Assembly: GCF_036488675.1 (NCBI RefSeq)
Contig: NZ_CP133151.1
Location: 186,001-250,000, forward strand
Origin: Sinorhizobium chiapasense
GTDB taxonomy: Bacteria > Pseudomonadota > Alphaproteobacteria > Rhizobiales > Rhizobiaceae
Length of the DNA: 64,000 bases
Direction: 5' to 3'
A program made the translations under genes and the position numbers. Shown in pieces: positions 5,216 through 50,035 of this stretch. Under the pieces are notes generated by a model that saw nothing but the letters and a program-made list of their open reading frames with translations, ran no database searches and was not told the DNA's origin. Positions within the stretch are counted from its first letter, which is position 1. Every line of letters starts with the position of its first letter.

Positions 5216-5369
5216 AAGTCCCGCTATCCAGTTGCCTTCCTTGGATGCGGGGACGCAGCCGAAGAGAATCAGCTACGTAGAGACGCTATCTACGCTTTCA
5301 CCAGAGAGGAAGTCCGATTCCACGTTTCCGCTACGCCTCTTCAAAAGCACGGGGGAGGGTAAACGCCTT

Positions 5370-8784: not shown

Positions 8785-8910
8785 GCAAGGTCCACCGTAA
8801 GATTGCCGCCATGGCTGGACAAGCAATGCGAGCCAACCTGGACTGCGGCGAGGAACCCTCGACTCCAAACTTTGTCCATTAGAGCGACGACGGAAGTGAT
8901 GGTGAAGTAA

Positions 8911-11174: not shown

Positions 11175-12212
11175 CTAAAGAAAGACCCGCGGGCCTCTAT
11201 AGTCTGCTGCATTCATGGCTGCCGCCAGGTTCGTTCGCACCCGCTTGGGCAGCGGATTAGATTCCAGGAAAACCATGCACCCGGAGCCTAGCTGTGCCAG
11301 CAATTTATCGGGCAGGCTGATCAACAGGTTGCACCTGGCGTTAAGCCTCCGCAGCCCGGCCGGAAGGTTGGTTGGCAGACCGGTCAGCTGGTTGCCGGCG
11401 GCGCCGAGCGTCCGCAGTCCGGCCGGGAGATCGCCGGGAAGGTCGGTGAGTTGATTGCCGCTGGCATTGAGCGTCTCGAGCCCGGCCGGGAAATTGTCGG
11501 GAAGGCTTGTCAACCGATTGCCGTCGGCGTTGAGAGTCTGGAGCAGGGCCGGGAGGTTGAGGGGAACGCTAGTCAGTTGATTGCCGTCGACGTTGAGTGT
11601 CTGAAGCCCGGACGGGAGATTGTCTGGAAGGCTGGTTAACTGGTTTTCGCCTGCGTCGAGCCACCGAAGCGTAGTCGGTAGGACATCGGGCAGGCTGGTC
11701 AGCCGGTTGTAGCTGACCTCGAGGGTCTGGAGTCCGGCCGGGAGGGGGTCGGGTAGGCTGGCCAACTGGTTGTACTTGGCGTTGAGCGTCTGAAGCTCGA
11801 CCGGGAACTCGGCCGGCAGGTTGGTCAACTCATTACAGTCGGCATTGAAGTGCCGGAGTCCGGCCGGCAACGCGGCGGGCAGGGTCCTAAGGCGCAGGGA
11901 TGACAGGTTCAGCGCTGCATTGAGATCGCCGGCATCCACCCAAGCACTGATTCGTCTCACCGCCTCTTGCCGACCCTCATCTTCCCCTTGCCCCTCTTCG
12001 GCAGCCCACTCGTCCAGGATCTGGTCCAGCGATGTTGCCCGGAGGACTGTGGCAAGGCTCGGATTGCCGGGAAGGCCCGCGGACAACTGCTGCGCCCGCC
12101 GCAAGTTATCGGTTGCGGTTGTGGTGAGATCACCTTGAGTGGCCGCACATTGCCGGCTGTCTTCTTTAGAAGTATTGCCATCGCATGGCTGCGCCTGTCC
12201 TGTTTTCACCAT
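11175..12212 (-). CDS. IpaH/NopM-like leucine-rich-repeat effector lacking the ligase domain
   Basis: The 345-residue protein has a polar N-terminus (1-70), a helical segment ILDEWAAEEGQGEDEGRQEA as in the rhizobial type III effector NopM, and about ten LPX-type leucine-rich repeats of about 20 residues (for example LPSGLQTLNVDGNQLTS). NopM and IpaH proteins then carry a C-terminal E3 ubiquitin ligase (NEL) domain of about 200 residues. Here the frame stops right after NAADYRGPRVFL, the junction before that domain, so the catalytic part is missing. It is either a truncated relic or a repeat-only effector. A nod box lies about 280 bases upstream in the same orientation. Confidence 0.8.
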   Translation of the reverse strand: MVKTGQAQPCDGNTSKEDSRQCAATQGDLTTTATDNLRRAQQLSAGLPGNPSLATVLRATSLDQILDEWAAEEGQGEDEGRQEAVRRISAWVDAGDLNAALNLSSLRLRTLPAALPAGLRHFNADCNELTNLPAEFPVELQTLNAKYNQLASLPDPLPAGLQTLEVSYNRLTSLPDVLPTTLRWLDAGENQLTSLPDNLPSGLQTLNVDGNQLTSVPLNLPALLQTLNADGNRLTSLPDNFPAGLETLNASGNQLTDLPGDLPAGLRTLGAAGNQLTGLPTNLPAGLRRLNARCNLLISLPDKLLAQLGSGCMVFLESNPLPKRVRTNLAAAMNAADYRGPRVFL

Positions 12213-13333
12213 TGGCCCTCTCTACTGGCTAAGGACGTGCCGAATGCTAGTTAACGATGACCGCTTCTCATCCGCGGTTTCGCCGAAAGCGGTGACCGGA
12301 CAAACCGCGGGTCGGTCCCGGCTAGATCGCCGGCGAAGCGGGAGGCGAAAGCTTCATCACGAGCTCCTTTCTGTGCATGAAACACATTCATCCGGCCGCT
12401 GAGCTTAGCGACCTGGGTACATCGCCCAGGGACTCTCAAACCGCTGCGATCACCCCCGGTCTGGTCTGATTGACTTCATGCAACATTGCCTCGGATCGGC
12501 AAAATTTATTGTTTGGATGAAACCTATTGGCGCCATGGATAAAAGACATGCGTTTTCAGGGGCTTTGGAGAAGATATGCCGGGTGCAGATGGCGTCTGAA
12601 GGGTTGCGGTTGACCCGCGTTCGCACAAATATGCCAGGCAGCCGGGATCCGGTAACCAAGGCACTTCCGCGACAGTAAGCTCCGTTCAGGAACAAGGTCA
12701 CAGCTGCTGCTGAGCAAAGGTGAAAACATTAGTATCCCCAGTTATCAAAAAGCCGATGCATTTCTGGCATTTTTGACCGCACCGTTCTGCCGCCGAACAT
12801 TCGGGGCGCCGGGAGCGGTTGTCGCCGAAGAGCGCTCTTGCGATTTCAAAGGAATGGGTTGCGCGCACTGCCCAGGATGCAGCTGACGGAACCGCTTCCG
12901 CGGGATCTTCTTGGCAGCGCATGCGCTCCTGCCGCCCCCAACCAGGTGGCATTTAGAAGTTGCTCCTCCTGAGTTAGCGAAAGCAGGGTCCTTGATGCCA
13001 TTATGGCCTTCGTTGTTGTGCCGATAACGGCCCTGTTCGCGTATATTTTCGCCAGATGAAGCAGGAGGATTAGAATTTGGGCTCAGAAACGGGACAGAGG
13101 AGCCCGAAGTACCTCATGGAGCCGGCCAGCCGTCAATCGACTACTAAGACAACCGAAGGAATTCCGCCTTGCAATCTTCAGGATCTACGGACGTGCAAGT
13201 TCCACCGAAGCCCGTGGAGCCTGATCGGATCACGACCTTCCGAAGATTCCATTGCAAACTGCCTTTCGGCGTTGCGCGGGGCTATCTTGGATGTTGCGGA
13301 TTCCTTGGCTTCTCAGATTTTGAAGCCTTATCT
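12213..13333. other. Long non-coding stretch with a nod box
   Basis: No gene is convincing except a possible very short frame (MKLSPPASPAI) with AGGAG upstream on the minus strand near 12365. The nod box at 12494-12540 is the main content. The right half overlaps only shadows of the XRE gene. Confidence 0.4.
12494..12540 (-). promoter_or_regulatory. nod box (leftward)
   Basis: On the minus strand it starts ATCCATGGCGCC and continues ATCCAAACAATAAATTTTGC, matching the NodD-binding nod box consensus (ATCCA...GATG...ATCNAAACAATCGATTTTAC) except that GATG is AATA and CGAT is AAAT. ATGTTGCAT follows at the spacing seen at two other boxes. The first substantial gene downstream is the LRR effector. 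Confidence 0.8.
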
Positions 13334-34300: not shown

Positions 34301-37300
34301 GCCGCTACATCCGGCGACCTGTCGACCAGCATCGCAACGATGTCACCCGGCCCCACACCGCACGTTCGCAGAACGGACCGGATCGCAGCCATGCGTTCGC
34401 GCAGTTGGCCAAACGTGATTGCTCCGAACTCACCGAAGTAAGCCACCCGATCTATATTTGAAGCGCTCACCTGATCGAACGCTTCTACAAGCGAAGGCTC
34501 GTTCTCATATGACCGTTCATCGGCGTTGAGCGAGCTTAGAATGGCGACGTCCGACGAGCTGAGGCTGCTCAGGGCGACAATCGGCTCGGCCGATCTCTCG
34601 ACACAGGCAGCAAGGAGATGGCGAAGATTATCGGCCATGCGAGCGATGACATCGCTCGAAAATACGTCTTCCGCATAAGCCAGTTGCAATGCAATTGCAT
34701 CGCCTTCGTCCTGCGCGTAAAGCGTTAGATCGAATTTCACATAACCTGTGTCGTATTCGCGAAATGTCAGTTCCAAATCGCATTTGGCAGGGGGTTCCGC
34801 AGGCTCGGAGTACATGTTGAACATGACTTGGAAGATCGGCGATCGACCGGGCTCGCGGTGGAGTCGGGTATCCCTGACCATCCAGCTAAATGGATACGCC
34901 GAGTTCGCGATCGCATCGCTTATGAGGTCCTGCACGTGAGTTACGTGAGCCGCGAAGGACTTATTGACGTCGATCGTGGTTCGAATTGGCAGCATGTTGA
35001 GGAAAAATCCCACGATCTCCTCGGTGCCTGGCTGGCTGCGCACCACGTGCGGTATGCCAACGATCACATCGTCTTGGCCGCTATACATCCGCAACAGCAG
35101 CTTGAAGCATGCCAATAGGATTGTGGAGGTCGTGCACCTGTGCCGGCGCGCAAAATCTCGCACTTGATCAGACAGTTCGCCGCCAAGGAGAATCGCATGC
35201 GAGTTCCCGCGGTAGGAGCTTACTTTCGACCGCAGTCGATCATTCCCGAGCGAAAGTACGGGAGGATTGTCGCCTAGCTGACGACGCCAATAGCGCCGCT
35301 GATCACTCAGCGACTCCGGTGTGACATGTACACTTTCCCAGAGCGCATAGGTCGAGAGTGAAGGGCGATCTGCTGGAGAAACTGCAGCGGCATTGGAGTA
35401 TCTCGTTTGTAAATCTCTGAGCAGGACAGAGATTGACCATGCATCTATGATGATTTCGTGCGCGGTTATCAGCATGAGATGGTCGTCGGCGCCAAGACGG
35501 ATCAGGCGCGCACGAAACAAATTCCCCTGACTGAGATCAAAGGGATTGTTGAGCTCCGTCCGCCGCAGCTCCGCCAAAAGCTCCTCGGCCTCTTCATGAG
35601 GCAGGTGAGTGGCGTCCACCAACTCTATATCGGAGCTCTGCGGATCATCAAAAATCTGAACCGGCCCATCTTCGTCGATGAAACGTGCTGAAAGCGCGTC
35701 ATGCGTCTCAACAACATCGTTCCAGGTTTTATTGAATGCGGTTAGGTCGATATCACCTCGGATACGCACGCCGCCCTGAATAATGTAATTTTTGGCAGTT
35801 GGATCCAACTGCCAGAGAAACCAAAGGTGTTCTTGCACTCGCGTCAGGGGCGCCCGTCTGAGCTTCCCACAGGCGGGAAGCACGTTCTTTGTCGTTTCGG
35901 ATTGGCTTGATATCGACGATGCAAGCGACCTGATGGTCCCATTCAGAACAACCCTGAAATCCGCATTTGCTCCGAGCTGCCTCTGAATCTGAGCCAATAT
36001 GAGTACCGCGCGGAGCGAGTCGCCCCCGAGATCCATGAATTGGTCATTGACGCCAATGCCTTCGATCCGAAGAACGCTGGACCATATAGCTCGTAGTGTC
36101 TTTTCAAGCTCCGTCTTTGGTTGCTCGAGCGGACCCAACTGCTCCGGGCGAACCGTTGTCGGATCTGGCAGTAACGCGAGATCTACCTTCCCGTTTCGGG
36201 TGAGCGGCATCCGCTCGACACGAATGATCCGCTCCGGAAGCATGTAGCCAGGAAGCGTTTCGGCAGCAAAGCTCCGGAGGTCACCCTCCGAAAGTTCGCC
36301 AGGAGCCGACACATAGGCCAGTATTCGTCTTGGCCCAGTTTCTCGGTTGGTGTTGGTTATTTCCCGAGCCGTGAGCTTCACGCTCTCGTTGACAGGTGCG
36401 ATAGCAACGGCGGCACTTACCAAAGGATGAGCGCAGAGGCGAGACTCGATTTCTCCAAGTTCGATCCGGTGCCCCCGGATCTTGATCTGCCGATCTCGTC
36501 TACCAAGACACTCCAGCAGGCCATCTGCCCTGATGCGTCCGAGATCGCCGGTCTTGTAGAGCTGCCGATAGGATGGGTGGTCCGTGAACGGGTTCGCCAA
36601 AAAGACGTCTTTGGTACGCACGCCATCGTTGATGTATCCATCAGCGACACCGACTCCGCTAACACAGATCTCGCCAACTTCTCCCGTCTTGCACAGACGC
36701 GATCCATTGGCGACATAAACCCTGAGATTGGCAATAGGCTTACCGATGGGCAAATAGGTGTCAGCTGTGCTGGGCGGGAGAGATATCAAATGGTGTGTAA
36801 CCCCATCCGCACATTCGGTCGGTCCGTAGTGATTGAGAATTGGGACTCGAGGAAAGAGTGTCAGCCACCCGTGCGCCAAGGCAGGCGTCAGCGGCTCGCC
36901 GACCGTGGAGACCTTGCGCAAGGCACGAAGAAACCGCTTCTTGACTGAGAGTGTCTGGAGATACTCAACGAAGACGGCCAGCATCGATGGAACGAATTGG
37001 GCAATTGTGACGCGATTTGCCTGCAGTGCCTCAAGAAGGGCCGTCGGAGATCTCACTGTCGAATCATCTATGATCGCGACGCAACTGCCGACGCATAACC
37101 CTGCCAAAAGCTGCCACAGCGAGATGTCAAAGCTATGCGAGGCAGTTTGTGCGACACAGTCCTTCTCACCTAGCTCGAGCGCGTCCATCTTGGCCCTCAG
37201 GTGGTTGTTCAGGCCTGCGCGCTTGACCATCACCCCCTTGGGTCTCCCCGTCGAACCGGACGTAAACAGAATGTAAGCGAGATGGCCCTCAGCAGAAGCT

Positions 37301-37767
37301 GGCATTCCAGGAGAGGCACGGCCACCGCGTAGCGCCGTCTGCACCGTCAAGAATTGCCGGCCGGTGCTGTTTTCCTGAAAGAGGCCAAGCTCTTCCGGTC
37401 TTTCCGGCCCGATAATCAGAGTGCATCCACTCTGCTCGATCATGAAAGAAATGCGGGAGGCCGGTAAGGACGGATCAAGTGGCAAATATGTTGCGCCGCT
37501 CTTCAGAATTGCAATTACTGTGGCTGCCCAATGAGGGTTTCGTTCACCGAAATACCCCACGATTTTACCCTCTGCGCCGCGCTCTCGCAGTGTGTTCGCA
37601 ATTTTGTCCGACAGCAGTCGCAGCTCAGCATATGTGAGTTCTTCCGCGCCATGTTTGATCGCTATCCTGTTCGGGAACGACGCCGCAATTTCATCGATAG
37701 CCGTAACCACATCGATGAGCTGACTTCCGACAAATTCGGACTTCGCAGTCCGGCCTTCGTTGAGCAT
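31306..37767 (-). CDS. Two-module non-ribosomal peptide synthetase (A-T-C-A-T-C/E)
   Basis: The 2153-residue protein opens directly with an adenylation domain (about 20-520: YILFTSGSTGRPKGVMV, NHYGPTE, YKTGDLGRI, NGKVD), then a carrier (DLGGDSL near 581), a condensation domain (about 640-1070), a second adenylation domain (about 1090-1590: IYTSSSTGKAKGV, NFYGTTE, SGKID), a carrier (DIGGNSL near 1629) and a terminal condensation/epimerisation-like domain (HHFVADG near 1816). No thioesterase is present. The first condensation domain has HEIIIDA in place of HHxxxDG. The second A domain lacks the usual Asp for the amino group (KSAALVAAAWEYF). It would join two building blocks; the product is unknown. 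Confidence 0.95.
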   Translation of the reverse strand: MLNEGRTAKSEFVGSQLIDVVTAIDEIAASFPNRIAIKHGAEELTYAELRLLSDKIANTLRERGAEGKIVGYFGERNPHWAATVIAILKSGATYLPLDPSLPASRISFMIEQSGCTLIIGPERPEELGLFQENSTGRQFLTVQTALRGGRASPGMPASAEGHLAYILFTSGSTGRPKGVMVKRAGLNNHLRAKMDALELGEKDCVAQTASHSFDISLWQLLAGLCVGSCVAIIDDSTVRSPTALLEALQANRVTIAQFVPSMLAVFVEYLQTLSVKKRFLRALRKVSTVGEPLTPALAHGWLTLFPRVPILNHYGPTECADGVTHHLISLPPSTADTYLPIGKPIANLRVYVANGSRLCKTGEVGEICVSGVGVADGYINDGVRTKDVFLANPFTDHPSYRQLYKTGDLGRIRADGLLECLGRRDRQIKIRGHRIELGEIESRLCAHPLVSAAVAIAPVNESVKLTAREITNTNRETGPRRILAYVSAPGELSEGDLRSFAAETLPGYMLPERIIRVERMPLTRNGKVDLALLPDPTTVRPEQLGPLEQPKTELEKTLRAIWSSVLRIEGIGVNDQFMDLGGDSLRAVLILAQIQRQLGANADFRVVLNGTIRSLASSISSQSETTKNVLPACGKLRRAPLTRVQEHLWFLWQLDPTAKNYIIQGGVRIRGDIDLTAFNKTWNDVVETHDALSARFIDEDGPVQIFDDPQSSDIELVDATHLPHEEAEELLAELRRTELNNPFDLSQGNLFRARLIRLGADDHLMLITAHEIIIDAWSISVLLRDLQTRYSNAAAVSPADRPSLSTYALWESVHVTPESLSDQRRYWRRQLGDNPPVLSLGNDRLRSKVSSYRGNSHAILLGGELSDQVRDFARRHRCTTSTILLACFKLLLRMYSGQDDVIVGIPHVVRSQPGTEEIVGFFLNMLPIRTTIDVNKSFAAHVTHVQDLISDAIANSAYPFSWMVRDTRLHREPGRSPIFQVMFNMYSEPAEPPAKCDLELTFREYDTGYVKFDLTLYAQDEGDAIALQLAYAEDVFSSDVIARMADNLRHLLAACVERSAEPIVALSSLSSSDVAILSSLNADERSYENEPSLVEAFDQVSASNIDRVAYFGEFGAITFGQLRERMAAIRSVLRTCGVGPGDIVAMLVDRSPDVAATTLAIRDLRATAVPISPDYPEERVGHILRDSGAKLLVHASEDEEVDFGVPCVNLSTLEARYAPGRLTHRTVELADEGAASLIYTSSSTGKAKGVLIPESAILNRLNWMWRCFPFDRFDVMAIQKSAALVAAAWEYFGGLLKGVPTLILTHEQLHDPDLLLRALARHHVTRLFASPPILSGLIAAQKRLQKMTNLRLVTSSAEPMPPSLPFRWRECFPDVPLWNFYGTTECASNAAVYGTSDADDGSSAVPVGRPIDNVRMYVLDAQLKRVPVGVAGELCVAGRCVSAGYWKDPERTQHCFVPNPYDEGQYSVLYRSGDIARISAKGLLEICGRADNQVQLRGFRIELEEIETALVSHPGITQAAAFVKGEDDDRRLVALVVPADDGLNSGDIVGHLRQTLPSYMIPSDVQAVHHMPLTASGKIDRARLPSVSSREMQKAKSAEPRTERERLLADIWQELLGAKSIGIDDSFFDIGGNSLLSVRCVTLARKAGLSLTVNQVHRTPTIRELATYKTSAATSALSASDGPLPVTPAVSHWNRCVGIGEHYNIVDLFFMPAGILNVSILERALAHVIGREEALRLRVAETESGLSQVIGSIPDPIVEEINLVGMAAAQQLTAIEQACAERQRTFRFDGRTPLIRVSAFRTSESGDYYLLVLLHHFVADGVGYRLFLNALEAAYDSFAAGRTTADPETTPLSLWLQRLDNYANGEAATELEHWEGIRYDLFDIGVSDTGSDAAGFSAETARWLHYAGSEEHIDEEFCRPLWKDQATYHLRISEETTGKLLKVAAASAQCEDFDLVLAAISGAFGRAFGNYSLWIDSLTSTRGQLFDDIDPSQIIGYIGELVPLPLYLTGTESHPDRARSIYQQRSSLPRRGIGFRALKFLNRHPAVRDRIDRLPLPRIGLNYRARLQRHYPRRLLSRDPHPLWIGEDMDQSVMNYLFWFRVGYQSGELQIEVRYDPRQVGYETTRNLCTILREELIQTVDAFREFGQTGNDG

Positions 37768-37800
37768 GCGTTTTCCTCGTAGGGCGAGACAATCACCAGG

Positions 37801-38180
37801 TCAGGATTCGGTTATGATATCGGGGGTGCCAGGCTGGGGCCTGGCCTGAGCGGCGCGAGGCAGAATATCGTAGGATGGGGGGTGTCGATCCAGGACCGCC
37901 GCGACACCGAAGTGTGTACCCGAACCGGAGTGGGGCCCGCGAGTATTCGACCGTGCGGGTGTCAGGGCCAAGCAGCTTTTGTCGATCGTCCCGCTGGTGC
38001 ATGTGACGGCGAGGGCGGTCGTGGCGTCGGCGCCCGCGCTTATGACGCCAGACGAGCTGAAGTCCGGATCGATCGCGGAATCGACCTGACAGTTCGCGGT
38101 GATCGTCGTCTGGGTTGAGCTTCGTGGTGGCAGGCTGTCCGAATGTGAAGCCGACGAAGAGTGCCAGTAAGCGCCGCAAG
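37801..38180 (-). pseudogene. Spore-coat-U/SCPU-domain secreted protein relic
   Basis: A signal-like start (MRRLLALFVGFTFGQPA) near 38179 runs in one frame; a different frame then gives TTITANCQVDSAIDPDFSSS and GADATTALAVTCTSGT, typical of SCPU domains of secreted adhesin-like (Csu-type) pili. The two are separated by a frameshift, and the C-terminal part is again lost. The gene is decayed. Confidence 0.55.
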
Positions 38181-38514
38181 CGCGTTTAAAATCTAAGTAG
38201 TGTGTTTGCACTGCGTCCGTCCGAGATGCTTCAGAAATGGAATGTTTATTGATGTTGTCATCCACGACATGAAAGTCGGGTTGGCAGCTCCTGCCGCCTC
38301 GCGACAAGGGAGTTTCAAAAGTCGTGCCAACTACGCAGGGGAGGGAACAGGAGCAATTCTCTGTATATTATCAAAGGCCTATGAAGGCGTAGGGATCGAA
38401 CAGCATCGTGTCGCGGACTCGACAAATCGACAAGTAGGTGTCGGGTAATCTGACCGATCTCTGGTCGAAGTGCCGCCGCCAGACGCTTGCCGAAGCCATC
38501 GATGACACTTTTGA
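38181..38514. other. Intergenic stretch
   Basis: No supportable gene. Confidence 0.4.
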
Positions 38515-38760
38515 CTAGAGGCCGAACCCTCCGGGCGCACCTTGGGCGACACTCGGTAACCAAAGGCCATCGGCGCCACGCCAGCCGACAATCGGAATGT
38601 CGCACTTGCGATCGAACTTGCCAATCGGCGCCTGGCGTACACAATTCACCGCAGTCCGGAACTTGTGGCCGGGAATCTGGATGGTGCTATCCCTCGAATA
38701 GGCGACGTCGCACGATAAGAGGGCTAGGGCGATCAGGCCGCAGAGGCTGCGCTTTGGCAT
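38515..38760 (-). CDS. Small secreted protein of unknown function
   Basis: This 81-residue protein has a signal peptide (MPKRSLCGLIALALLSCDVA, cleavage near residue 22) and a mature part with two cysteines (VNCVRQAPIGKFDRKCDIP). A good AGGAAGGA ribosome site precedes the ATG. The protein is probably periplasmic or secreted with one disulfide. I do not recognise a characterised family. Confidence 0.6.
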   Translation of the reverse strand: MPKRSLCGLIALALLSCDVAYSRDSTIQIPGHKFRTAVNCVRQAPIGKFDRKCDIPIVGWRGADGLWLPSVAQGAPGGFGL

Positions 38761-38931
38761 AGTGAGTCCTTCCTCATTTCAGCAAATGCTGATTTTACAT
38801 CGGGCGGAGGAGTTTGGCCCTTATCCTTTCCGAACTAGCTCCGGCGGACGATCCGCGAGGCGCACTGCCGTCAAGGCGGCGCACGCGTTTGAACGGTATG
38901 TGACAGGCAGGAACCGTCTCTGGTGCATTAA

Positions 38932-38968
38932 CAAAAAAAGGGCGCAATCTGGAAAACCAGACCGCGCC
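38932..38968 (-). terminator. Rho-independent terminator of dctA
   Basis: On the minus strand GGCGCGGTCTGG and CCAGATTGCGCC pair around TTTT and are followed by seven T. It is 30 bases beyond the dctA stop. Confidence 0.92.
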
Positions 38969-38999
38969 AAACCGCACTTCTCGTGCGGGCCCTGGGAGG

Positions 39000-40337
39000 C
39001 TATTCGGCGGGCTGGACGGTCGCCGGGACGGTTTTGACCGGCGCTTCACCCGCAAGTGCCGCAGAAAGTTGCGCGTGGTCGAGCTCGCCTTCCCACCTCG
39101 CCACGACCAGCGTCGCGGCCGCATTACCGATAATATTGGTGAGCGCGCGGCATTCCGACATGAAGCGGTCGATGCCGAGGATCAGCGCCATGCCGGCGAC
39201 CGGTACCGAGGGAACGACCGAGAGCGTTGCGGCAAGGGTGATGAAGCCCGCGCCGGTGATGCCGGCAGCCCCCTTCGAGCTCAGCATTGCGACAAGCAGG
39301 AGCAGGATCTGGTCACCGAGGGACAGCGGGATATCGGTCGCCTGCGCGATGAAGAGCGCGGCAAGCGTCATGTAGATGTTGGTGCCGTCGAGGTTGAAGG
39401 AATAACCGGTCGGGATGACGAGGCCGACGACCGAGCGCTTGCAGCCTGCCTTCTCCATCTTGTTCATCAGGCCCGGCAGTGCCGCCTCCGAGGAGGACGT
39501 GCCGAGCACGAGCAGCAGTTCTTCCTTGATGTAGCGGATGAGCGCGACGATCGAGAAGCCGTTGTAGCGTGCGACCGCGCCGAGCACGATGAAGACGAAG
39601 AGGAAGGAGGTGAGATAGAAGGTGCCAATCAGCATGGCGAGGTTGGCGATCGATGCCACGCCGTACTTGCCGATGGTGAAGGCCATCGCGCCGAAGGCGC
39701 CTATCGGAGCGGCCTTCATCAGGATCGCGACCAGACGGAAAATCGGCAGCGTCAGCGCATGCAGGAAATCGACCACCGGCTGGCCTTTTTCGCCGACCAT
39801 GGCAAGCGCTATGCCGAAGAGAACCGAGATGAGCAGCACCTGCAGGATGTCGCCCTCGGCGAAGGCACTGACCAGCGTCGTCGGAATGATGTTCATGAGA
39901 AAGCCGGTTACCGACTGCTCATGCGCCTTCTCGGTATAAGTGGTTACCGCCTTCATATCGAGCGAGGCCGGATCGATATGCATGCCGGAGCCGGGCTGGA
40001 CCACATTCGCGACCACCAGACCGACGATGAGCGCCAGCGTCGAGAAGGTCAGGAAGTAGATCATCGCCTTGCCGGCGACGCGACCGACCTTGGCGAGATC
40101 GGTCATGCCGGCAATACCGGTCGCGACCGTCAGGAAGATGACCGGCGCGATGATCATCTTGACGAGCTTGATGAAGGCATCGCCGAGCGGTTTGAGCTCG
40201 GTGCCGACATCCGGATAGAAATGCCCGAGCAGGATGCCCGCAGCGATCGCCGCGAGGACCTGGACATAGAGATGCCGATAGAGCGGTGTCTTGCCGCGGA
40301 CCTCCGCGGAATGTTGTGCGATCATGATATCCTCCAC
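39000..40337 (-). CDS. dctA: C4-dicarboxylate transporter DctA
   Basis: This 445-residue inner-membrane symporter of the DAACS family imports succinate, fumarate and malate, which fuel nitrogen-fixing bacteroids. The family motifs [16 protein letters not shown] and [19 protein letters not shown] are present, with about eight membrane helices and two hairpins. The start is MIAQHS or the upstream [11 protein letters not shown] sigma-54 promoter lies 90 bases upstream, as in known rhizobial dctA genes activated by DctD. The usual divergent dctBD genes are absent, so control would come from elsewhere. Confidence 0.97.
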
Positions 40338-41036
40338 GCGGGCCTAGTCCGGCAACAGGCCGGGCCTCCCAGGCCACCTTCCGAAGATCGACAGCACCGC
40401 TGCCTTGTAGAGCTATCGAGCAAACGGCATGCCAACCGACAGCGGCTCGATTAACGCCCTGAAATAGCGAGGCATTCCTCTTCGAGCGCCGGAGCCCAAC
40501 ACAAACGTGTGCGGAAATCCGCAAGATCGACCGGGGCAATGGGCGAAAACATACACAATGCTGTCATATTCAGAGCGGCGACGACCTTCGCGCATCGCGC
40601 GCTCGCGTGCGGCGAGGACGGTCCCGACCCATGCTTGTGTGACGCGGGCCGGCAGCCCATAGAAGACGAAATCCTGGGCGGAGGGAGCCTTGCCGACGTA
40701 ACGAGAGAAAGGGCCGGAGGACAGCGGAACGAGGCGTAGCGGTTACTCAAAGTACCTGTTAGTTCAGCATAAAAAACTGACGGTCCTGCAAAAAGGCCAG
40801 TGGCGTAGCCCGCTGGAGTGGATCGGGGACAAATACGCCGCAGATCTCAATCAAATCCCCAAGGGGCACTCTTTCATAGTACCCTATCAAGATTGATACC
40901 TCGTTCGGAGATGTTTCTTCCGCCCAGACAAACGTGTCTCTGGTCCCTAGAGGCGTATAGTGAACATCCTCCGGGGAGCTAACCGTGTTCTTTCGACTGG
41001 GCCACCGCCGCAAGCATCGCCAAGCTGAATCGCCCG
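40338..41036. other. dctA upstream region and a doubtful short frame
   Basis: Apart from the promoter, it holds a minus-strand frame (40759-41013, TTG start, 84 residues with TSPNEVSILIGYYERVPLGD) that looks protein-like and follows the TIR gene by 24 bases. I list it only as possible. Confidence 0.35.
40419..40434 (-). promoter_or_regulatory. Sigma-54 promoter of dctA
   Basis: On the minus strand TGGCATGCCGTTTGCT matches the -24/-12 consensus TGGCACG-N4-TTGCA with the correct spacing. It is about 80-95 bases before the dctA start. Confidence 0.85.
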
Positions 41037-42245
41037 CTAGTTTCGACTCTTCACAAAGCGGCGGGTGTGGTCCGTCGCCACGACCCTGAACGAATACCAG
41101 TCGTTCGCCAATGTCCGATAATCAATGATGAGCTTCCGCTCCATGAGATATGCGAGAGCGGGATTCATGCGACGAACATCCCAAGAGTACCGGGCAGCCA
41201 CCTCTTCGGTATTGTGGGGCATTGAAGGATCATTGACTAGATCGGCGGCTAAACGAAGAGCATCCTTTTCGGGCGACCAATCCTTGAAGAAGCCGTCGAA
41301 GGCAGTGTACAGCGTGGTCTTCGGCAGGACCCTGTTGAGGGTAACCGTAACCATGTCGCCCAGCTCATAGAGGGCATCTTCGATGTCTTCTACCGAGACA
41401 CCGATTACTGCCGCGAGCTCGTCGGTTTCCTTCTGCGGATCTCCAAATAATGCCGTTTTCGTTTCGCGAACGAAAATCTCCGCAATCGCCGTTGCGGTCT
41501 TCGAATGACTGGTGGTGGGCAGCTGCGTTGTCGCTGGTGCCTTTCCAAGTGGGGGTTTGCGCGAGATGCCGTGAATATCGTTTACAAGATCACGGATGCT
41601 TTCATCGAAATTCTCGTTTGTAATCTCAGGAGACATCATCCCTGAAAGCAATGCGGGGAGCTGGCTCGCCGGCAGTTCGTGTCGCAGGGCAACGAATCGC
41701 GCTTGTCCTGCAATGCGCTTCACAAGACCAGCATCCATTTCTTGATTAACCCAAGGCTTCTTCTGCGAACCGGGTGTCAACAGCACGATAAAATGGGTAC
41801 ATCCGGCGAGGCCTTCATCGATGCGCTGACGGAGACTGTCGCCTGCCTTCATCTCCCATTCCGCCCACCAAACGTCGATTCCGTGCTCCATCAGCGAATT
41901 TGCAATCCGCCGGGCGATATCACCGTCATCAAAGGAATAGCTCAAGAACGCTTTTGGTTTCAGAGTTTGGTCTGTTGCCATAAAAATGGTGGCCTCTCTA
42001 TCGTCCCGGTCCATTTGCTCCTTTACATGGTCAAGAAGAGATTGTGTGCCTTCAATCTTAAGGTGAAGGTCCTCGATCGTGTTTCCCAAAACCAATACGG
42101 TCGGAAATTCGCCAGTCTCCGGATGGCGAATGGAGGCGAAACGCTGCCACAACTGTTCCTTCATCTGCTCGACTGCCGCTGTCTCAATATCCTTTGCGAA
42201 GGTACTGGCGTTGAAGGGCCGCCCTTTATACGTCAAAGCCATCAT
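41037..42245 (-). CDS. TIR-domain protein with N- and C-terminal extensions
   Basis: The 402-residue protein has a TIR domain at about 97-225: KPKAFLSYSFDDGDIARRIA, VWWAEWEMKAGDSLRQRID and WVNQEMDAG, where Glu169 is the expected NAD-cleaving residue. Residues 1-95 precede it without a recognised family. Residues about 250-402 look like helical, winged-helix-type domains (AAVIGVSVEDIEDALYEL; EEVAARYSWDVRRMNPALAY), which may sense a ligand or partner. It is the last gene of the TIR/caspase locus, 135 bases after the second TIR gene. Confidence 0.9.
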   Translation of the reverse strand: MMALTYKGRPFNASTFAKDIETAAVEQMKEQLWQRFASIRHPETGEFPTVLVLGNTIEDLHLKIEGTQSLLDHVKEQMDRDDREATIFMATDQTLKPKAFLSYSFDDGDIARRIANSLMEHGIDVWWAEWEMKAGDSLRQRIDEGLAGCTHFIVLLTPGSQKKPWVNQEMDAGLVKRIAGQARFVALRHELPASQLPALLSGMMSPEITNENFDESIRDLVNDIHGISRKPPLGKAPATTQLPTTSHSKTATAIAEIFVRETKTALFGDPQKETDELAAVIGVSVEDIEDALYELGDMVTVTLNRVLPKTTLYTAFDGFFKDWSPEKDALRLAADLVNDPSMPHNTEEVAARYSWDVRRMNPALAYLMERKLIIDYRTLANDWYSFRVVATDHTRRFVKSRN

Positions 42246-42380
42246 TCACTCCCATCGCCTTTATTCTTCATCATGTCGCCAAAGCCGGAACGGATTCTGC
42301 CAAATGAAGGGCGTCCGAATGTCTCTTGCGTAGCTCACGACATCGGTCGCAACTCTGATGCGCACTGATACCAATTCTCA

Positions 42381-42857
42381 TCACTGGCCGAGATCTTTCC
42401 TCAGGATCGAGTAGAAGTCGCGCGTGGCTCTAAACCGCGCGACCCCTTCATTGAGCGTGGCACGTTTTTGAATGAGGCTGCGCTGAGCGGCCCTGGATGC
42501 CTTGGCATAGAGGTCAAGATCAGCATGGGAGCGAAGGTATGGCCATTTACGGAGATACTCGGGCGGTCGAGTCGCACCCTCCGCATATGTGGCCAAAGGA
42601 TAGTCCTTTTCAGTCGCAACGCCGATTTCCCACGGCACCCACCAAGACTGTTGAGTTTTCTCCGAAACTACTGCCAGCAGTTGCGTACATTTGCCCATCT
42701 CAGTCTGGATATGCAGAGCGAGATCCTCGCCCTTCTGGATATTGGGATCGATTAGATCGAGGTAGCTATCAATCTCATGACGCGTCTTGAGCCGCCGGGC
42801 AATATCAGCTGCCAGCAGGCCGTCGGCGGCTTGATGGGAAATAAATACCTTTATCAA
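42381..42857 (-). CDS. Short TIR-domain protein
   Basis: The 158-residue protein is almost wholly a TIR domain: [20 protein letters not shown] at the start, [33 protein letters not shown] with Glu77 as probable catalytic residue, and a C-terminal helical tail. TIR domains of this kind in bacteria hydrolyse NAD or make cyclic ADP-ribose signals on phage infection. It overlaps the caspase gene by four bases, so the two are coupled and likely act together. Confidence 0.93.
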
Positions 42858-43801
42858 ATCAAACCTCTTTCGACCAAACGACGATAATGCTCACCCAATG
42901 CGGTAAGTTTCGCGGTTCGGCTCTCCATTGCTGCGTAGTACATATGTGGAGCGCCGACCGGCACCAGCAAATTGACGCGATTGAACTTCTGCAAAATGGC
43001 AAAAACAGCGTTCTTGTCCGGGTCAGGATTGGGGCTATCCGGTTCATATTCCGGGCTAAGCGGAAACTCATAACCGGGCGAAGGAAAAAACTCCGCAATC
43101 CTTCGAAGATGGCCCAATTCCAAAGGTGGCTGGACGGATCGCAGCGATACGAATGTCTTCACATTGGTTTTGAATACCGGGCGTTGTGCCCATGGTCCGA
43201 GGGACTGATCGACATGCGCGTACACACCACCTGGCGTCACGTCGCCAACAAGGTTGGCTGCGGCACCACCTAGAGCGTCCACGAGAAGACCGGTGAACAC
43301 GCCGGAACCATTTTCTTCTGTCGCGTATTGCTCCGCCGTCGAAGCGGTCAGGATTGTCATCCCATCAGACAGCTCTGACATCGCGGGTTGTCCCGGATCC
43401 TGGGCTATTCCGCCCCCGTGGCAGCTGTCCAAAATAATGACTTTATTGCGGGACTTCGACTTGTTGGCAAAGATCATAATGTCGGAGAGTGCCAACCCAT
43501 CATCGCCGCTCTTTGTATCGCTGGCACAAAGATAGCCGCCTGTCGATTCAATGTAGCCGTGCCCCGCAAAATAAAGGAGTGCGATCTCGTCATCTCCTTC
43601 GAATAGTTCCTTTATGGCATCGCGCAGCTCTTGCCGCGTCGCCACGTCACCAGCGCCAGTGATCAACCGGACGCCGAAGTTCACGGAGCCGTCTGCATTG
43701 CGGTCCAGCATAGCCTTGACCGCATAAGCGTCGTTGACGCACCCATGGAGGCTGGAGATGTGCTTGTAGAAGTCAATCCCCACAACCAAAGCCTTACGCA
43801 T
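42854..43801 (-). CDS. Caspase-family (C14) cysteine protease
   Basis: The 315-residue protein has a caspase-like fold at about 1-200 with His81 in [12 protein letters not shown] and Cys127 in [11 protein letters not shown] as catalytic pair, and substrate-loop features [13 protein letters not shown]-terminal domain (about 235-315) includes [20 protein letters not shown] and [20 protein letters not shown], a pattern I recall from caspase proteins beside TIR genes, possibly the signal-binding part. In such systems a TIR-made nucleotide activates the protease, which kills or arrests infected cells. It sits between two TIR genes. Confidence 0.92.
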
Positions 43802-43819
43802 GCCACTCCCCTTTGCCCG

Positions 43820-44209
43820 TTACAGTCTGTCGATAAAGTTCTTGATGTTGTCCCAGGTCCAAGGAACGGTAGTGACACCGTCAAGCTTTGAACGATCGTC
43901 GTTATAAACCCATATCGCCAGGATCGGCTTTTTCTCTTCTTTCGCGCACTGAATTTCCCATTTCTGACCAGAGGACCGCAGCGAGTTCTTGCTGGCGAGA
44001 GCAATCACCCCGTGCGATCGCCGGATACGCGTGCGCACCTTTTCCTTCCAATCTGTCTCGTAGGCCTCTTTGACAGACGTATCGATATACTCGAAAGGCG
44101 ATTTCGTGTGCAGAGATTGGCCTTTAAGGAAGTCCCGTGACCGCTCATCCTCGATGGCAAACGCCACAAACACTATTTTCTTGTCACCCATGAGAATCAT
44201 AGCCTCCAC
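43820..44209 (-). CDS. ThsB-like TIR protein (DUF1863 / MTH538 type)
   Basis: The protein is about 129 residues from GTG 44209, or shorter from internal ATGs (MILMGDKK). The pattern KKIVFVAFAIEDERSRDFLK, SPFEYIDTSVKEAYETDWKE, RIRRSHGVIALASKNS and KWEIQCAKEEKKPILAIWVY is that of the Thoeris ThsB TIR family, with Glu85 as probable catalytic residue. ThsB senses phage and makes a cyclic ADP-ribose-type signal. It is the first gene of the locus, 18 bases before the caspase gene. Confidence 0.9.
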   Translation of the reverse strand: MEAMILMGDKKIVFVAFAIEDERSRDFLKGQSLHTKSPFEYIDTSVKEAYETDWKEKVRTRIRRSHGVIALASKNSLRSSGQKWEIQCAKEEKKPILAIWVYNDDRSKLDGVTTVPWTWDNIKNFIDRL

Positions 44210-44899
44210 TTGATGTAGCCATTGGTTTCATTGCCATAGTTCGTCGGATAGGCGAAAAAAACGCGAAATCCATATTATGGAGCGGGACGGGCCGATCTGC
44301 TGAACGACGAGCCCTGCCGCCAACGAGCCCAGATCGCAGCAATCCTTGAGGCTCCTCCTGGTATTCCTGACGGCCTGCTCCCGCTTCAGCTGAGGATTGG
44401 CCTGACTATTCACGGCGCTATCAAGCGACACGCCACAGGTTCGAGCCGCTGTCAGGTCACGCCTCCATCAGCTGTAGATTCGGCAGCCGCACCTCGTGCG
44501 GCATTGAGAAAAAGGTGGCTGCCGCCGAAACGTGTTCGACGACAGCCAGGTCGCCCTGGGAGGTCGGGCGGAAGAAGGATGAGTCTTGGCGGGATCAACT
44601 GCGGGTATAACTGTCCGATCCGGCCAATCAGGCACAGAAGACACTTCATTGACACACGCAGAAACTGGAGAAAAAGCGGGGGCCGTTGAAACAGATCAAC
44701 GACATCCGAATGACCTGAGAGGGCGGGGAAAAAGTCGCCACACTTAGGGTTGAAGTATGTTCAGGATCGACCGGTTGCTCGGCGTGGATGATGTGGCCGC
44801 TATGAAACGAACACTTGCATGTCTCGACCGAGGAGACCTCGGTCGTGCAGCTCACTGCAACCGGCTTCCACATGGCGAGATCCAGGTCCGTCTCTTTCA
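44210..44899. other. Intergenic stretch
   Basis: Nearly 700 bases upstream of the TIR/caspase locus with no recognisable gene; it should include the promoter of that locus. Confidence 0.4.
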
Positions 44900-45907
44900 T
44901 CAGGTTTCATCGCTTTCAACGTTATCCATCTTGCCCTCATCGCGTGCGAAGCGCAGGGCGGAAGAGGGGCTGCAGCCGTAGGCGCTCCTGTAGAGAACCG
45001 AGAAACGACTGAGATTGGAAAACTGGAGGCTCATCGCCAAGTCGGTTATACTCGTCATTCGGCCGGCCTTGATCGCGCCGTGCGCTGCAGCCAGCCTGTA
45101 ACTACAGAGAATGCCAACGGGCGAGTCGCCGCGATGGCTACGGAACATCCTCTGCAGCGCCTGCGGGCTGCAGCCTGCAGCGACCGCGAGATCGTCGATG
45201 GTTATCGGGTTGGATAAGTTCTCCCGCATGAAGGCCTCGGCCTTGAGGAGTTGCCTTGGGGCATCCGTCAGCGATCCGCGCCCGAGTTCCTCGGCGAGGT
45301 TGTGCGGCGTCTTGGCAAACAGCTTCGCCAGTGCCAACTGTTGGTACGCTTTTGCCAATATCGGTCTTTCTTCAGAAGAAACGGAAGAAAGATCCTCTTC
45401 TGCCTGTCTGAGCGTTCGATAGAGGCCCAGCCCATCGTCTTCACAAAACCTGATCGGCGGCAGCACGAATTCCTGGACATATGGCCGCCCGGTCAAGTCC
45501 TCAAAGTGTCGCCGCAAGGTGGGCTCGGGAATGTGGAACGCCAACCACGAACTGTGAGGTTCGATAGCCAAGCGTTTTCCAGAACTTTCGCAGGCGCTTG
45601 CAACGTGGTTCGCGGGGATGGACAGAACCGAGCGCGCCGTGCGATCACTAATTTCCATCGCGCCGGCCAGCACGAAATAGATGCTGATGCGCGCCGTATT
45701 GCGTCTGGCGACGGCGCCGATACCGACGGAATGCTCGATGGTCACTATCGAGCCCGTGTGAAGATATTGTCGCCTGAACTTGAGTGAGCAATCTTCATCC
45801 GAATGGGCCGTGATCGTCCACCGCCAGTTCGGTTCCACGGCATCAAGATTGCGCCGGATCGCATCATTCGAACTTGCTTCGAAGCCAATACTTCTGAGCA
45901 CACTCAT
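44900..45907 (-). CDS. AraC-family transcriptional regulator
   Basis: The 335-residue protein has an N-terminal effector-type domain (about 1-200, AraC-binding-like) and a C-terminal pair of helix-turn-helix motifs (about 225-320): [20 protein letters not shown] and then [20 protein letters not shown] with YGCSPS. It overlaps the UPF0262 copy 1 stop by four bases (ATGA), so it is the last gene of a coupled run of UPF0262 copy 2, copy 1 and this regulator. Targets and effector are unknown. Confidence 0.9.
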
Positions 45908-46473
45908 CCACGATGCTCCCTTTTAGTCAAACCGCGACTCGGTCCCAATTGGTGGCGCGGGGCTGCGCCTTCGTTGTCATTATTGGAGGGTGCGCTCGGC
46001 GATCGTCGCATGAGCAGTACGTAGATCAGCGTGAACAGCCGTCGGGCGGTGTCTTTGTCGACGATCACCTTGGCCGCGAGCCGCTCTCTCAGTACTTCGG
46101 CGGCGTCGTTGTGAATGGCACGACGGCCCATGTCGATTGCTTCGAACCTGGCGGGGCTCGCGCCTGGCATGGCGTCGTAGAAACTCTCGCAGGTCAGGAT
46201 GTAGTCCTTGAGCAGCCGGCGGAAGGGCGCGAGCGACAGGAAATGGCTCATGACATGCGCTCCCGCCTCGGTTGAGATATGCAATGCTAGCTGCGCCCCC
46301 GCCAAGGCGAGGCTGAGGCGATAGGGCCCGCCGTCATGACCGACTGGAATGAAGGTGTTCTTCTCGAGCAGGTCGTAGACGGCAATGGCGCGTTCCCGCT
46401 CGAAGTGGGGATTGCGGCTGCTGAACGAGCCGTCAAGCGTCACATGGCCCAGTCGGAACGCGGCGGCACTCAT
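45904..46473 (-). CDS. UPF0262-family protein, copy 1
   Basis: The 189-residue protein matches the UPF0262 family: [20 protein letters not shown]-type region, [48 protein letters not shown] and [13 protein letters not shown]. The usual family length is about 158, so the C-terminus is extended. The family is normally a single chromosomal gene near hisD in rhizobia and has no known function. Start and stop overlap the neighbours by four bases each. Confidence 0.85.
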
Positions 46474-47054
46474 CGACGTTGCTCCGCTCGCGAGGCTTCA
46501 ATGCCGATGGCGATACCCACTCCAGCACCGGTGCAGAGCTTCCTCAGACCGGGTTGTGGCACTTCTCGAACCGCTGCCGGGTGGCGTTCTGCAAAGAGCG
46601 CATAGAACAATGTGAACAGCCGCCGAGCGGTGTTTTTGTCAACAGTAACCTTCGGCGCGAGCCGCTCTCGGAGCACGTCCGAGGCGTCATCATGAATTGC
46701 CCGACGGCCCATGTCGATTGCTTCGAGCCTTTGCGGGTTCGGGTGTGTCAAGGCGTTGTGATAGCTTTCACAGATCAGGAAGTAGTCCTTGAACAGCCGA
46801 CGGAACGAAGTGAGCGACAAGGAGTGTCTCACCACATGCGCGCCGTCCTCCGTCGTGATGTGCAGCGCCAAGCGTGAATCCGCTAATGCAAGACTGAGAC
46901 GATAGGGGCCGCCCTCATGACCGACGGGAACAAAGGTGTTGTACTCAAGCAAGTCATCGATGGCGATCGCTTGTTCGCGCTTTAGGTGCGAGTTGCGGCC
47001 GCTCAAGGAACCATCAAGCGACACGTCGTAAAGCCGGAACATGGCGGCGGTCAT
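46470..47054 (-). CDS. UPF0262-family protein, copy 2, with thiolase-derived tail
   Basis: From ATG 47054 the protein has about 194 residues. Core motifs are [35 protein letters not shown] and [20 protein letters not shown]. The C-terminus reads [20 protein letters not shown], a decayed thiolase end ([16 protein letters not shown]), so the gene reads through into what was a thiolase tail preceding copy 1. Another such tail (LAKLCNGRRRAIAMCIASL) lies in frame just before its own start. It overlaps copy 1 by four bases. Confidence 0.83.
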
Positions 47055-47310
47055 CGACGTTGCATCCGGTCGTAAGGATGCAATGCACATGGCGATGGCT
47101 CTTCGACGGCCATTGCAGAGCTTCGCCAGGGCCGATTGCGGCGCTTCATTCTCATTCGGCTGAAGGGTGTCAAGATTGAGTAGCTGTCTGCGCATGGTTT
47201 CATAAATCTTCTGAGCACGTTCTTCCGGTATGTTTCCGAACTTGCGGCTGACTTGGGCCGTAGGAGTTATGTTATAACATCGCATAAGATAGCTTATGGA
47301 ACTCGGAAGT

Positions 47311-48374
47311 TCATATCCCTATAGCTTCATAGGCATCGGCAATCTGTCGGATTGATGCAACGTAGGCGGCGGTTCGGTAATCACCGAGTTCCGGTTGCTG
47401 TTCGATGAGGTCGGCGATGCGCCCCCAGGTGCTGTGCATAACGTCTTCCAGCCCGGAACGGACGAGATCGATTTCAGCGCCGCCTTCGAGAAACTCGTCT
47501 CGGATATCGGCAGGGAATTCCTTGCCGGTCATGCGTTCGAGTGCCGCGGCAATCGTCTGGTTGCGCCGCTCGCGCCGGCGCCGCTCCATCAGGCCGAAGG
47601 GGATATGCGTCAAATTCTTCACCCACTCGAAGTAGCTGACGACAACGCCGCCGGCATTGACGTAGAGATCGGGAAGGATGGTAACGCCACGGGTGCGCAG
47701 CACTTTGTCGGCCTCGAAGGTAACCGGGCCGTTGGCTGCCTCGACCACCAGGTTTGCCTTGATGCGGTCTGCATTGCCCGCATGGATGGCATTTTCGACA
47801 GCGGCTTGACGGTCACGCAGGCGCGGGCATTGATAACGTCGGTCGGGTTGGCGCGGCGGAACTCGTCCATCATCCAGGCCATTTCCCGCTCGCCCGTGCC
47901 GATGTCGGGCGCCGGGACGTTGACGCCGGGGCCGATCAGGCCGCGCTTGTTGAGCTCCTGCGTGAAGCGGCGGGTGATACGCTCGAGTTCCTGCGGGGTC
48001 CATTCGCGCGGATCGATTTTCAGCGCGCCCTTCGAGCCGCCGAAGGGAACATCGATCAGCGAGCATTTGAGTCATGAGTGCCGCCAGCGCCTCGACTTCC
48101 TCAGCGTCAGCATTCGACGCATAGCGGATGCCGCCCTTCACCGGTTCGCAGTGTTCGCTGTGGACCGATCGCCAACGGATGAAGCTGTACATGCGGCCGC
48201 GTAGCCGGACGCCGAACCGTACCGTGCAGGTCGAGTTGCACTGCATGATCCGCTCCGACAGGCCTTCCGGCAGGTCGAGGAACGTCATCGCATGGTGGAA
48301 GTTCTGGTCAACGCTATCCAGAAAGCCCGCGGAGCTGGTTTCTCCGGACTGTATGCCGCGATGTGGTATTGCAT
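47311..48374 (-). pseudogene. Glutamate dehydrogenase relic lacking the NAD-binding region
   Basis: ATG 48374 has AAGGAGGA upstream and starts NAIPHRGIQSGETSSAGFLD, then QCNSTCTVRFGVRLRGRMYS and VKGGIRYASNADAEEV as in NAD-type glutamate dehydrogenases. Frames change around 48065 and 47830 (one frame reads [19 protein letters not shown], then ARACVTVKP), and the sequence then jumps to [20 protein letters not shown]. The Rossmann dinucleotide-binding part is deleted. The C-terminal part to the stop at 47311 is well preserved. The original enzyme would be over 500 residues. Confidence 0.8.
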
Positions 48375-48391
48375 TCACTTGGGGTTCCTCC

Positions 48392-48769
48392 TTAGGCAGC
48401 CTCGTTATGGACGCCACGCCGGCCCATATCGATCGCCTCAAGCAGTTCAGGGCCTGGGTGGCGGATGGCGTCGTAGTAACTCTCGCAGATACGGATGTAG
48501 TCTTTGAGCAGTCGACGGAAGGGGGTGATCGACGGGTGGTGACTGACGACATGCTCGCCCTGATCATCAGCGACATGTATTGCAAGGCGCCCTACAACCG
48601 CTTCGATCCTGAGGCGATAAGGCCCCCCCGCCGTGACCGACCGGGATGAATGTTTGCTTTCCAACAGGTCGATGACCGCGAGCGCTTGCTCCCGCTCGAT
48701 TCTCGCGTCCCGGCCACCAAACGACCGGTCGAGCGATACGTCGCAGAGACGGTACTCGGCGGAGGTCAT
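48392..48769 (-). pseudogene. UPF0262-family copy 3, broken
   Basis: The frame begins [20 protein letters not shown], shows a pair of compensating frameshifts at [15 protein letters not shown] (others read [15 protein letters not shown]) and stops after [11 protein letters not shown], about 35 residues short of the family end. It lies between phbA and the glutamate dehydrogenase relic. Confidence 0.75.
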
Positions 48770-48781
48770 GACCTTGTCCCC

Positions 48782-49963
48782 TCAAAGCGTTTCCACACAC
48801 ATGGCGACACCCATGCCGCCGCCGATGCACAAGGTGGCAAGGCCCTTGGAAACCCCGCGCCGCTTCATCTCGAACAGTAGCGTATTGAGAACGCGCGCAC
48901 CGGAAGCGCCGATCGGATGGCCGATCGCGATCGCACCGCCATTGACGTTGACGATCGACGGATCCCAGCCGAGGTCCTTGTTGACGGCGCAGGCCTGTGC
49001 CGCGAAGGCCTCGTTCGCTTCTACGAGCCCGACGTCGCCGACGGACCAGCCGGCCTTCTCCAGCGCCTTGCGCGAGGCCGGGATCGGCCCCGTCCCCATG
49101 ATCTGCGGATCGACGCCGGCCGTCGCCCAGGAAACGATGCGGGCAAGCGGCTGGATGCCGCGCCTGCCGGCTTCCGCCTCGGTCATCAGCAGCGTCGCGG
49201 CGGCACCATCATTGAGCCCGGACGCATTGCCGGCAGTGACGGTTCCTTCCTTGTCAAAGGCGGAGCGGAGCTTCGCCATGGAATCGAGCGTGGCGCCGTG
49301 GCGGATATATTCGTCCTGGTCGACGGTCACATCGCCCTTGCGGGTCTTGACGATGAACGGCACGATCTCGTCGGCGAAACGGCCAGCCTTCTGTGCGGCT
49401 TCAGCCTTGTTCTGCGAAGCGAGCGCGAATTCATCCTGCTCTTCACGGGTAAGCTGCCACTTGCGGGCGACGTTCTCGGCGGTGATGCCCATGTGATAGC
49501 CGTAGAAGGCGTCCGTCAGGCCATCCTTGATCATCGTGTCGATCGTCTTGAAATCGCCCATCTTCACGCCGCCGCGAAGGTGCGCGCAATGCGGTGCCAT
49601 CGACATCGATTCCATGCCGCCGGCCACGATGATATCCGCATCGCCGGCCACGATCTGCTGCATGCCGAGCGCCACGGCGCGCAGGCCCGAACCGCAAAGC
49701 TGGTTCATGCCCCAAGCCGTCTTCTCCTGCGGGATGCCGGCCTTCATCGCAGCCTGACGGGCCGGGTTCTGCCCTTCGCCCGCGGAAAGAACCTGGCCGA
49801 GGATCACCTCGTCCACCTCTCCCGCGTCGACGCCCGCCCGCTCGAGCACAGCCTTGATGGCGCCCGCGCCCAACTCGTGCGCGGGGGTGTTGCCGAAGGC
49901 ACGGTTGAAGGATCCGACGGCGGTGCGAGCCGCGCTGGCGATGACGATCGATGGGGTGCTCAT
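48782..49963 (-). CDS. phbA: Acetyl-CoA acetyltransferase (thiolase) PhbA
   Basis: The 393-residue enzyme condenses two acetyl-CoA to acetoacetyl-CoA, the first step of PHB synthesis, or cleaves acetoacetyl-CoA in ketone-body use. Catalytic residues are Cys90 (NQLCGSGLR), His349 ([14 protein letters not shown]) and Cys379 (CIGGGMG). Given the adjacent succinyl-CoA:acetoacetate CoA-transferase genes, it probably works in acetoacetate use. It follows the transferase subunit B by 72 bases. Confidence 0.96.
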
Positions 49964-50035
49964 GGTGGTCTCCTCTATGGTCCTGCGAAGCCGGCAGACT
50001 ATCGGCTCCAGCCTTTCGGCAAAGAACCGCTGGCC

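Follow-up and report, generated by a model that had tools for sequence, protein, structure and literature searches.

A Thoeris-like TIR-caspase locus of Sinorhizobium chiapasense with a second, probably caspase-dedicated TIR gene

Four genes and a TIR-caspase pair

We analysed a 64,000-nucleotide stretch of Sinorhizobium chiapasense DNA, hereafter the window, which covers bases 186001-250000 of the 442,576-base contig NZ_CP133151.1 in a genome of 6.87 Mb, and focused on four minus-strand genes, here named A to D, that encode three TIR proteins and one caspase-family protein. Gene A (43820..44209) specifies a ThsB-like TIR protein of 129 residues and lies immediately upstream of gene B (42854..43801), whose 315-residue product is a predicted caspase-fold protease with a His81/Cys127 dyad and a conserved C-terminal region (about residues 226-315). 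Gene C (42381..42857, TTG start) encodes a second TIR protein of 158 residues with Glu77, and gene D (41037..42245) a 402-residue TIR protein with N- and C-terminal extensions and Glu169. The open reading frames (ORFs) bear out a first-pass annotation of the same DNA, which had described four leftward genes at these coordinates with gaps of at most 135 bases: A and B are 18 bases apart, B and C overlap by 4 bases, and C and D are separated by 135. Its domain assignments, three TIR proteins and one caspase-family member, also agree with Pfam, where A matches ThsB_TIR (8.4e-8) and TIR_2 (1.7e-6), B matches Peptidase_C14 (3.5e-18), and C and D both match TIR_2 (2.1e-10 and 5.1e-22, respectively), values that make a chance resemblance untenable for the three TIR proteins and the caspase.

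The catalytic residues named in that annotation are invariant among relatives, namely Glu85 of A (23/23 aligned relatives), Glu77 of C (18/18), Glu169 of D (8/8 of an alignment of D and seven relatives), and His81/Cys127 of B (49/49 relatives, and 64/64 after addition of 15 rows from C-bearing loci), and they align by sequence with solved TIR and caspase-fold chains. For A, a profile matched the solved chains 9b7d (ThsB1), 6lhy and 9uv0 (both ThsB) with E-values of 1.4e-4 to 3.7e-3 and brought the Glu column into register with those of solved TIR chains; as a single phmmer query against solved structures, A gave no match. The start of A is more likely the ATG at 44191, six codons past the annotated GTG, since a GGAGG stretch lies upstream of it and several relatives start there. 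The protein would then comprise 123 residues, and Glu85, numbered from the GTG, would become Glu79. The predicted model of B features a caspase fold over residues 1-223 that matches MALT1 (the match rows reach residue 226 at most), and its His/Cys dyad aligns by sequence with those of solved caspase-fold chains.

Comparison of the neighbourhoods of 63 loci with B relatives supports the earlier suggestion of a Thoeris variant with a caspase-like effector. Same-strand genes A and B form a pair that is kept across relatives: among the 40 distinct loci with assessable flanks, drawn from 62 with a usable caspase, a TIR ORF lies within 4 kb of the caspase gene in 39 (one such ORF in 30 loci, two in seven, three in one, four in one and none in one). 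We thus read A and B as what looks like a type IV Thoeris pair, in which a TIR protein is coupled to a caspase-fold protease. The locus scored as TIR-free, L040 from Nocardia, carries at 7019-9778 a caspase with no upstream TIR match, followed by a 919-residue WD40-repeat protein with a borderline TIR_2 match (27.5 of 28 bits), possibly a different sensor architecture. B matches were present in 68 plasmid records, 40 of them among the matches listed, and those also carrying C were inspected; a phage collection gave B matches in three records and C matches in none, and in the viral contigs scanned B and C were without relatives and D had one.

Linkage and history of the second TIR gene

Samples of 394 genomes of the family, 385 of the class and 398 of the phylum, each including the genome of the window, yielded relatives of C (E<=1e-8) in seven distinct genomes, counting that of the window, and another TIR gene and a caspase gene adjoin C in all seven. 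Among 72,556 plasmid records, a C relative was found in 15 (tblastn E<=1e-5), and in all 15 both a TIR gene and a caspase gene lie no more than 5 kb away, the latter split in two pieces in two of them. The order of the three genes varies: A-B-C in the window and in its relatives L099 and L100, C-A-B in L080-L082, L073 and L103, and a divergent arrangement in L085, while in both the window and L099 gene C directly follows B with the same 4-base overlap. Persistence of the linkage through different gene orders led us to reject an accidental juxtaposition of C and the caspase, and the invariance of Glu77 a version of C devoid of its catalytic glutamate. C is probably a genuine part of a type IV Thoeris sub-variant, dedicated to the caspase.

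We then compared A, B and C over 18 C-bearing loci, a set that excludes L079 and L083 with their two-piece caspases as well as the near-duplicates L086 and L116-L118, and in which L011/L099 and L012/L100, each one and the same place, are counted once. Mean pairwise identities amount to 37.5% for A, 47.6% for B and 46.0% for C, where the A row of L101, cut by a contig end, lowers the values for A; the A proteins of C-bearing loci are 22-83% identical to that of the window. Mantel tests on these pairwise identities returned weak correlations for A-B (rho 0.15, p 0.14) and C-B (rho 0.23, p 0.07) and none for A-C (rho 0.00, p 0.43). On the caspase tree five changes of C presence are needed, at least four of them by starred branches. 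The caspase of the window groups with five C-less loci (98*), and its C gene falls with those of distant caspases in a group of six (support 91/90, not starred). An approximately unbiased test rejected a single clade for the C genes of crown caspases (p 1.2e-7). As judged from these comparisons, the histories of A, B and C are in part distinct, and the weak correlations, the changes on the caspase tree and the rejected clade together indicate that C appears to have joined different TIR-caspase pairs more than once. Since C changes partners yet, within its close family, keeps the same kind of partner, a shared function is the best explanation.

The C-terminal region of B offers a further view of this relationship. 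Fifteen of its positions, chosen as invariant in alignment A3, were followed through the 18 C-bearing loci, where seven are kept in 18/18 and eight in 15-17/18, a conservation that fits one shared signal. This region is the presumed signal receptor. At one of the C-bearing loci, L071 from Komagataeibacter (5567-11757), two caspase genes face each other, each with a TIR gene or TIR fragment upstream, and a C gene, a RyR-like gene and an S8 protease gene lie among them.

Accessory genes, gene D and the plasmid setting

In L099, the closest relative of the window, C is directly followed by an intact gene for a 173-residue SLOG-type protein (6218-6739), with relatives in L078, L084 (annotated DUF1273 on its plasmid) and L085; L073 retains a fragment of one. 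The Pfam YpsA (SLOG) model matches one of three scanned members of this family weakly (0.0023). The gap between C and D in the window holds what may be the remains of such a gene (42273..42381, minus strand): a start-like piece at about 42346-42384 is followed by an end-like piece at 42273-42347, in the right order and in different frames. Against 200 mononucleotide shuffles, the score of the end piece (8.3 bits) was reached in none, that of the start piece (3.4 bits) in one, and both together in none. Across the whole window the best match to the family lies elsewhere (12636-12707, 9.1 bits), with the end piece second (E 0.21) and the start piece fifth (E 7), so that the case depends on where the pieces lie, on their order and on the gene being intact in L099. 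A decayed SLOG-type gene that once followed C is therefore a supported but faint candidate.

SLOG-type genes accompany 5 of the 18 C-bearing loci (one as a fragment) and lie within 4 kb of the caspase in 0 of 41 distinct C-less ones, an absence that is incomplete as only 1 kb of flank on each side was required of the C-less loci for the SLOG and RyR counts; in L039, a SLOG match lies about 5.5 kb from the caspase. A second kind of accessory gene, a RyR-like ORF of about 90-100 residues, directly follows the caspase in 22/41 distinct C-less loci and lies within 4 kb in 8/18 C-bearing ones (for example L080 6888-7181, L023 7004-7276 and L100 995-1270). Three of three such ORFs scanned match Pfam RyR weakly, at 2.6e-4 to 2.5e-3 and under the cut-off, and the window gave no match to a RyR-like gene. 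The two kinds co-occur in none of the 18 C-bearing loci, and four carry neither. Phage RyR-domain proteins are described as hydrolysing 2'cADPR and 3'cADPR, two cyclic ADP-ribose signals, in PMC13232231, and the RyR-like product could possibly act as a signal-binding or signal-clearing partner. Calcineurin-like phosphoesterases (5/18) and S8 proteases (4/18) are also found at C-bearing loci, with no match at C-less ones (phmmer 1e-5, single queries).

Gene D presents a different picture. Its full-length relatives were found in nine plasmid records, in four other genomes among the 394 of the family (E<=1e-40) and on one viral contig, and the 9-15 kb stretches around them gave no caspase match (0/9, 0/4 and 0/1, respectively; tblastn E<=1e-5); a search with B found nothing in the four family genomes at E<=1e-10. 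D is missing from L099 and L100, the A-B-C loci closest to that of the window, and in five records from sphingomonads a D gene and a tyrosine recombinase gene overlap. The PADLOC model bSEFIR matches all eight members of the D alignment, and D itself at 1.9e-17 over residues 80-342 (model positions 34-291 of 412), with PDC-S66 scoring better over the TIR part (1.8e-19); matches of the D profile to solved chains are confined to the TIR part and the region just before it. D is thus probably a neighbour of the TIR-caspase system and no member of it, best read from these comparisons as an independent TIR defence gene. The first-pass annotation had taken three TIR proteins beside one caspase as a unit, and named the scattering of homologues as evidence against it. 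Relatives of D are indeed scattered, A, B and C stay together across relatives, and the caspase linkage extends to C and not to D, which turns the arrangement into two TIR genes and a neighbour.

The four genes occupy a segment (40701..44368) that was not found on plasmid pCB3126_2 of Sinorhizobium terangae, where the same flanks, 92.8% identical up to window position 40700 and 89.8% identical from 44369 onwards, enclose other genes; related plasmids thus differ in the 3.67 kb that hold A-D. The segment has a G+C content of 0.53, against 0.59-0.61 in 2-kb windows over 39001-41000 and 45001-47000. Window positions 37800-60000 match 322 plasmid records, including 120 from Sinorhizobium and 79 from Rhizobium. 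Promoter- and terminator-like sites in 40800-44950 number below the shuffle means, Rfam gave no match over 36000-50000, and 40300-45100 holds no repeat longer than 23 bases. A family whose members on the S. terangae plasmid are annotated UPF0262 is present nearby (45904-48769) in several diverged copies. They surround a glutamate-dehydrogenase-like ORF (47311-48585), and the corresponding ORF on the S. terangae plasmid is longer. The contig carries a second TIR-rich cluster at about 38.6-47.4 kb (L009 4588-13386), where five TIR_2 ORFs, one under the cut-off, surround a large ORF that is patatin-like by eye; the cluster is without a B relative, of which the genome has only one.

Proposed mechanism, alternatives and known systems

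We favour, with moderate confidence, a variant of type IV Thoeris in which A and B form the basic pair, C is a second TIR protein feeding the same protease, and D is independent. The identity of the signal, the receptor role of B, protection against phage and the role of C are what we infer here. Upon phage infection, A would sense the invader and make a cyclic ADP-ribose signal from NAD+, namely N7-cADPR if as in the described system, for which passages of PMC12847820 citing Rousset et al. 2025 give the sequence of TIR protein, N7-cADPR and caspase-like protease. The signal would bind the C-terminal region of B, whose caspase-fold protease would degrade cell proteins and leave the cell stalled or killed and the infection aborted. 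C would most likely serve as an additional sensor and synthase that responds to other phage triggers and delivers the same signal to B, and single effectors with several ThsB genes are known for other Thoeris types. D would act as a separate TIR defence gene downstream of the remains of the SLOG-type gene.

Several observations weigh against this interpretation. The defence-profile searches recovered ThsB_TIR, Peptidase_C14 and, for D, bSEFIR, but no curated type IV Thoeris model among the Pfam, PADLOC and NCBIfam results, and the NCBIfam model caspase_w_EACC1 stayed below its cut-off on B (95.5 of 140 bits). C is uncommon, with 2 of the 63 caspase loci carrying it, so that the basic TIR-caspase system does not need it, and most of the C-bearing rows entered the comparison through searches that used C as query. 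TIR genes that match the C profile distantly occur with no caspase beside them (L009 11025-11618, 1e-11; L091 6312-6866, 1e-13), which restricts the strict linkage to the closer C family. Presence of C is clustered on the caspase tree, where the five changes compare with a mean of 15.3 in shuffles (0/500 as low), and this speaks against free movement of C; the tree itself comes from a quick search with a warning of long branches meeting, which makes the number of gains unsure. An AlphaFold model of C built from three sequences reached a predicted local distance difference test (pLDDT) score of 44 and was set aside. Finally, that both TIR proteins would make the same signal draws solely on conservation.

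A and C could instead form a single heteromeric sensor in which one binds a phage protein and recruits the other, and only one makes the signal. There is precedent in ThsB1/ThsB2 of the type I Thoeris system of Staphylococcus aureus and in a streptococcal system where catalysis falls to the other TIR protein of the two, according to PMC12578639, and the position of C directly after B with a 4-base overlap, both here and in L099, would suit coordinated partners. The invariant glutamates of A and C mean that neither resembles a dead scaffold, an argument limited by the Glu that the non-catalytic staphylococcal partner also had, and the wide divergence of A together with its uncorrelated A-C identities argues against a fixed interface, leaving us to regard such a sensor as rather unlikely. 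Should C rather make a different ADP-ribose signal for the SLOG-type or RyR-like protein, or tune or end the response instead of feeding the caspase, the partition of the 18 C-bearing loci would be in keeping with it: eight have a RyR-like gene and five a SLOG gene, remains of which may also persist in the window, none has both, SLOG genes were missing within 4 kb of the C-less caspases, and the phage RyR proteins described in PMC13232231 cleave signals of this kind. Yet the SLOG gene of the window is decayed while C is intact, 4/18 C-bearing loci have neither accessory gene, and RyR-like genes follow the caspase in 22/41 C-less loci as well, so that we hold this second-signal role to be quite improbable.

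A single immune unit of all four genes, with three TIR proteins, would agree with their common strand and short gaps, with the one 3.7-kb segment absent between the same flanks of S. terangae, and with the five D-type TIR ORFs (TIR part, by profile) found among the 40 TIR-caspase loci. In L035 from Desulfuromonadaceae (2728-6954), four TIR genes of different types precede one caspase, and two of them match D in its TIR part (2e-19 and 3e-9). We rejected this unit, which seems to us very improbable, on the caspase-free surroundings of the full-length D relatives and the absence of D from L099 and L100; the apparent remains of another gene that precede D speak against it too. Our preferred reading of an A-B pair with C as second input can be extended, as a tentative and rather doubtful proposition, to a mobile type IV Thoeris subtype marked by C: the second TIR gene would have been recruited repeatedly together with a SLOG-type or RyR-like partner that binds or clears the signal, and the protease would be driven by two TIR proteins and switched off by the partner, whose SLOG-type gene would have decayed in the window.

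In the TIR-caspase system, bacteria combine two components that are hallmarks of cell-death immunity in animals, and C, with close relatives found only beside a caspase yet apparently moved between pairs, provides a defined test of several sensors sharing one death protease. RyR-like genes after the caspase (22/41 C-less loci) and SLOG genes seen solely in C-bearing loci also suggest that control of the ADP-ribose signals may be built into the system. The TIR-caspase pair is already known; what may be new is the second TIR protein, probably dedicated to the caspase. The literature searched, with most subscription papers beyond its reach, held no account of such a second TIR protein or of SLOG and RyR accessory genes, which is weak evidence of absence.

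With type IV Thoeris, as far as it is known from the citing passages, the locus shares a ThsB-like TIR gene immediately upstream of one for a caspase-fold protease, intact catalytic residues and a wide spread over plasmids and chromosomes; it differs from the system so described by the caspase-linked C and the SLOG-type and RyR-like neighbours. Like type I Thoeris of S. aureus with ThsA, ThsB1 and ThsB2, it features two TIR proteins of different types and one effector, which in the S. aureus system degrades NAD+ (PMC12578639) and here is a predicted caspase-fold protease. The bSEFIR single-gene defence of PADLOC bears on D alone, which matches the model while its extensions are unplaced and PDC-S66 scores better. 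With the MALT1 paracaspase and the metacaspases, B shares the caspase fold of residues 1-223 of its model and, by alignment, the His/Cys dyad, whereas B is bacterial and sets itself apart by a distinct C-terminal region and by its presumed activation through a TIR-made signal.

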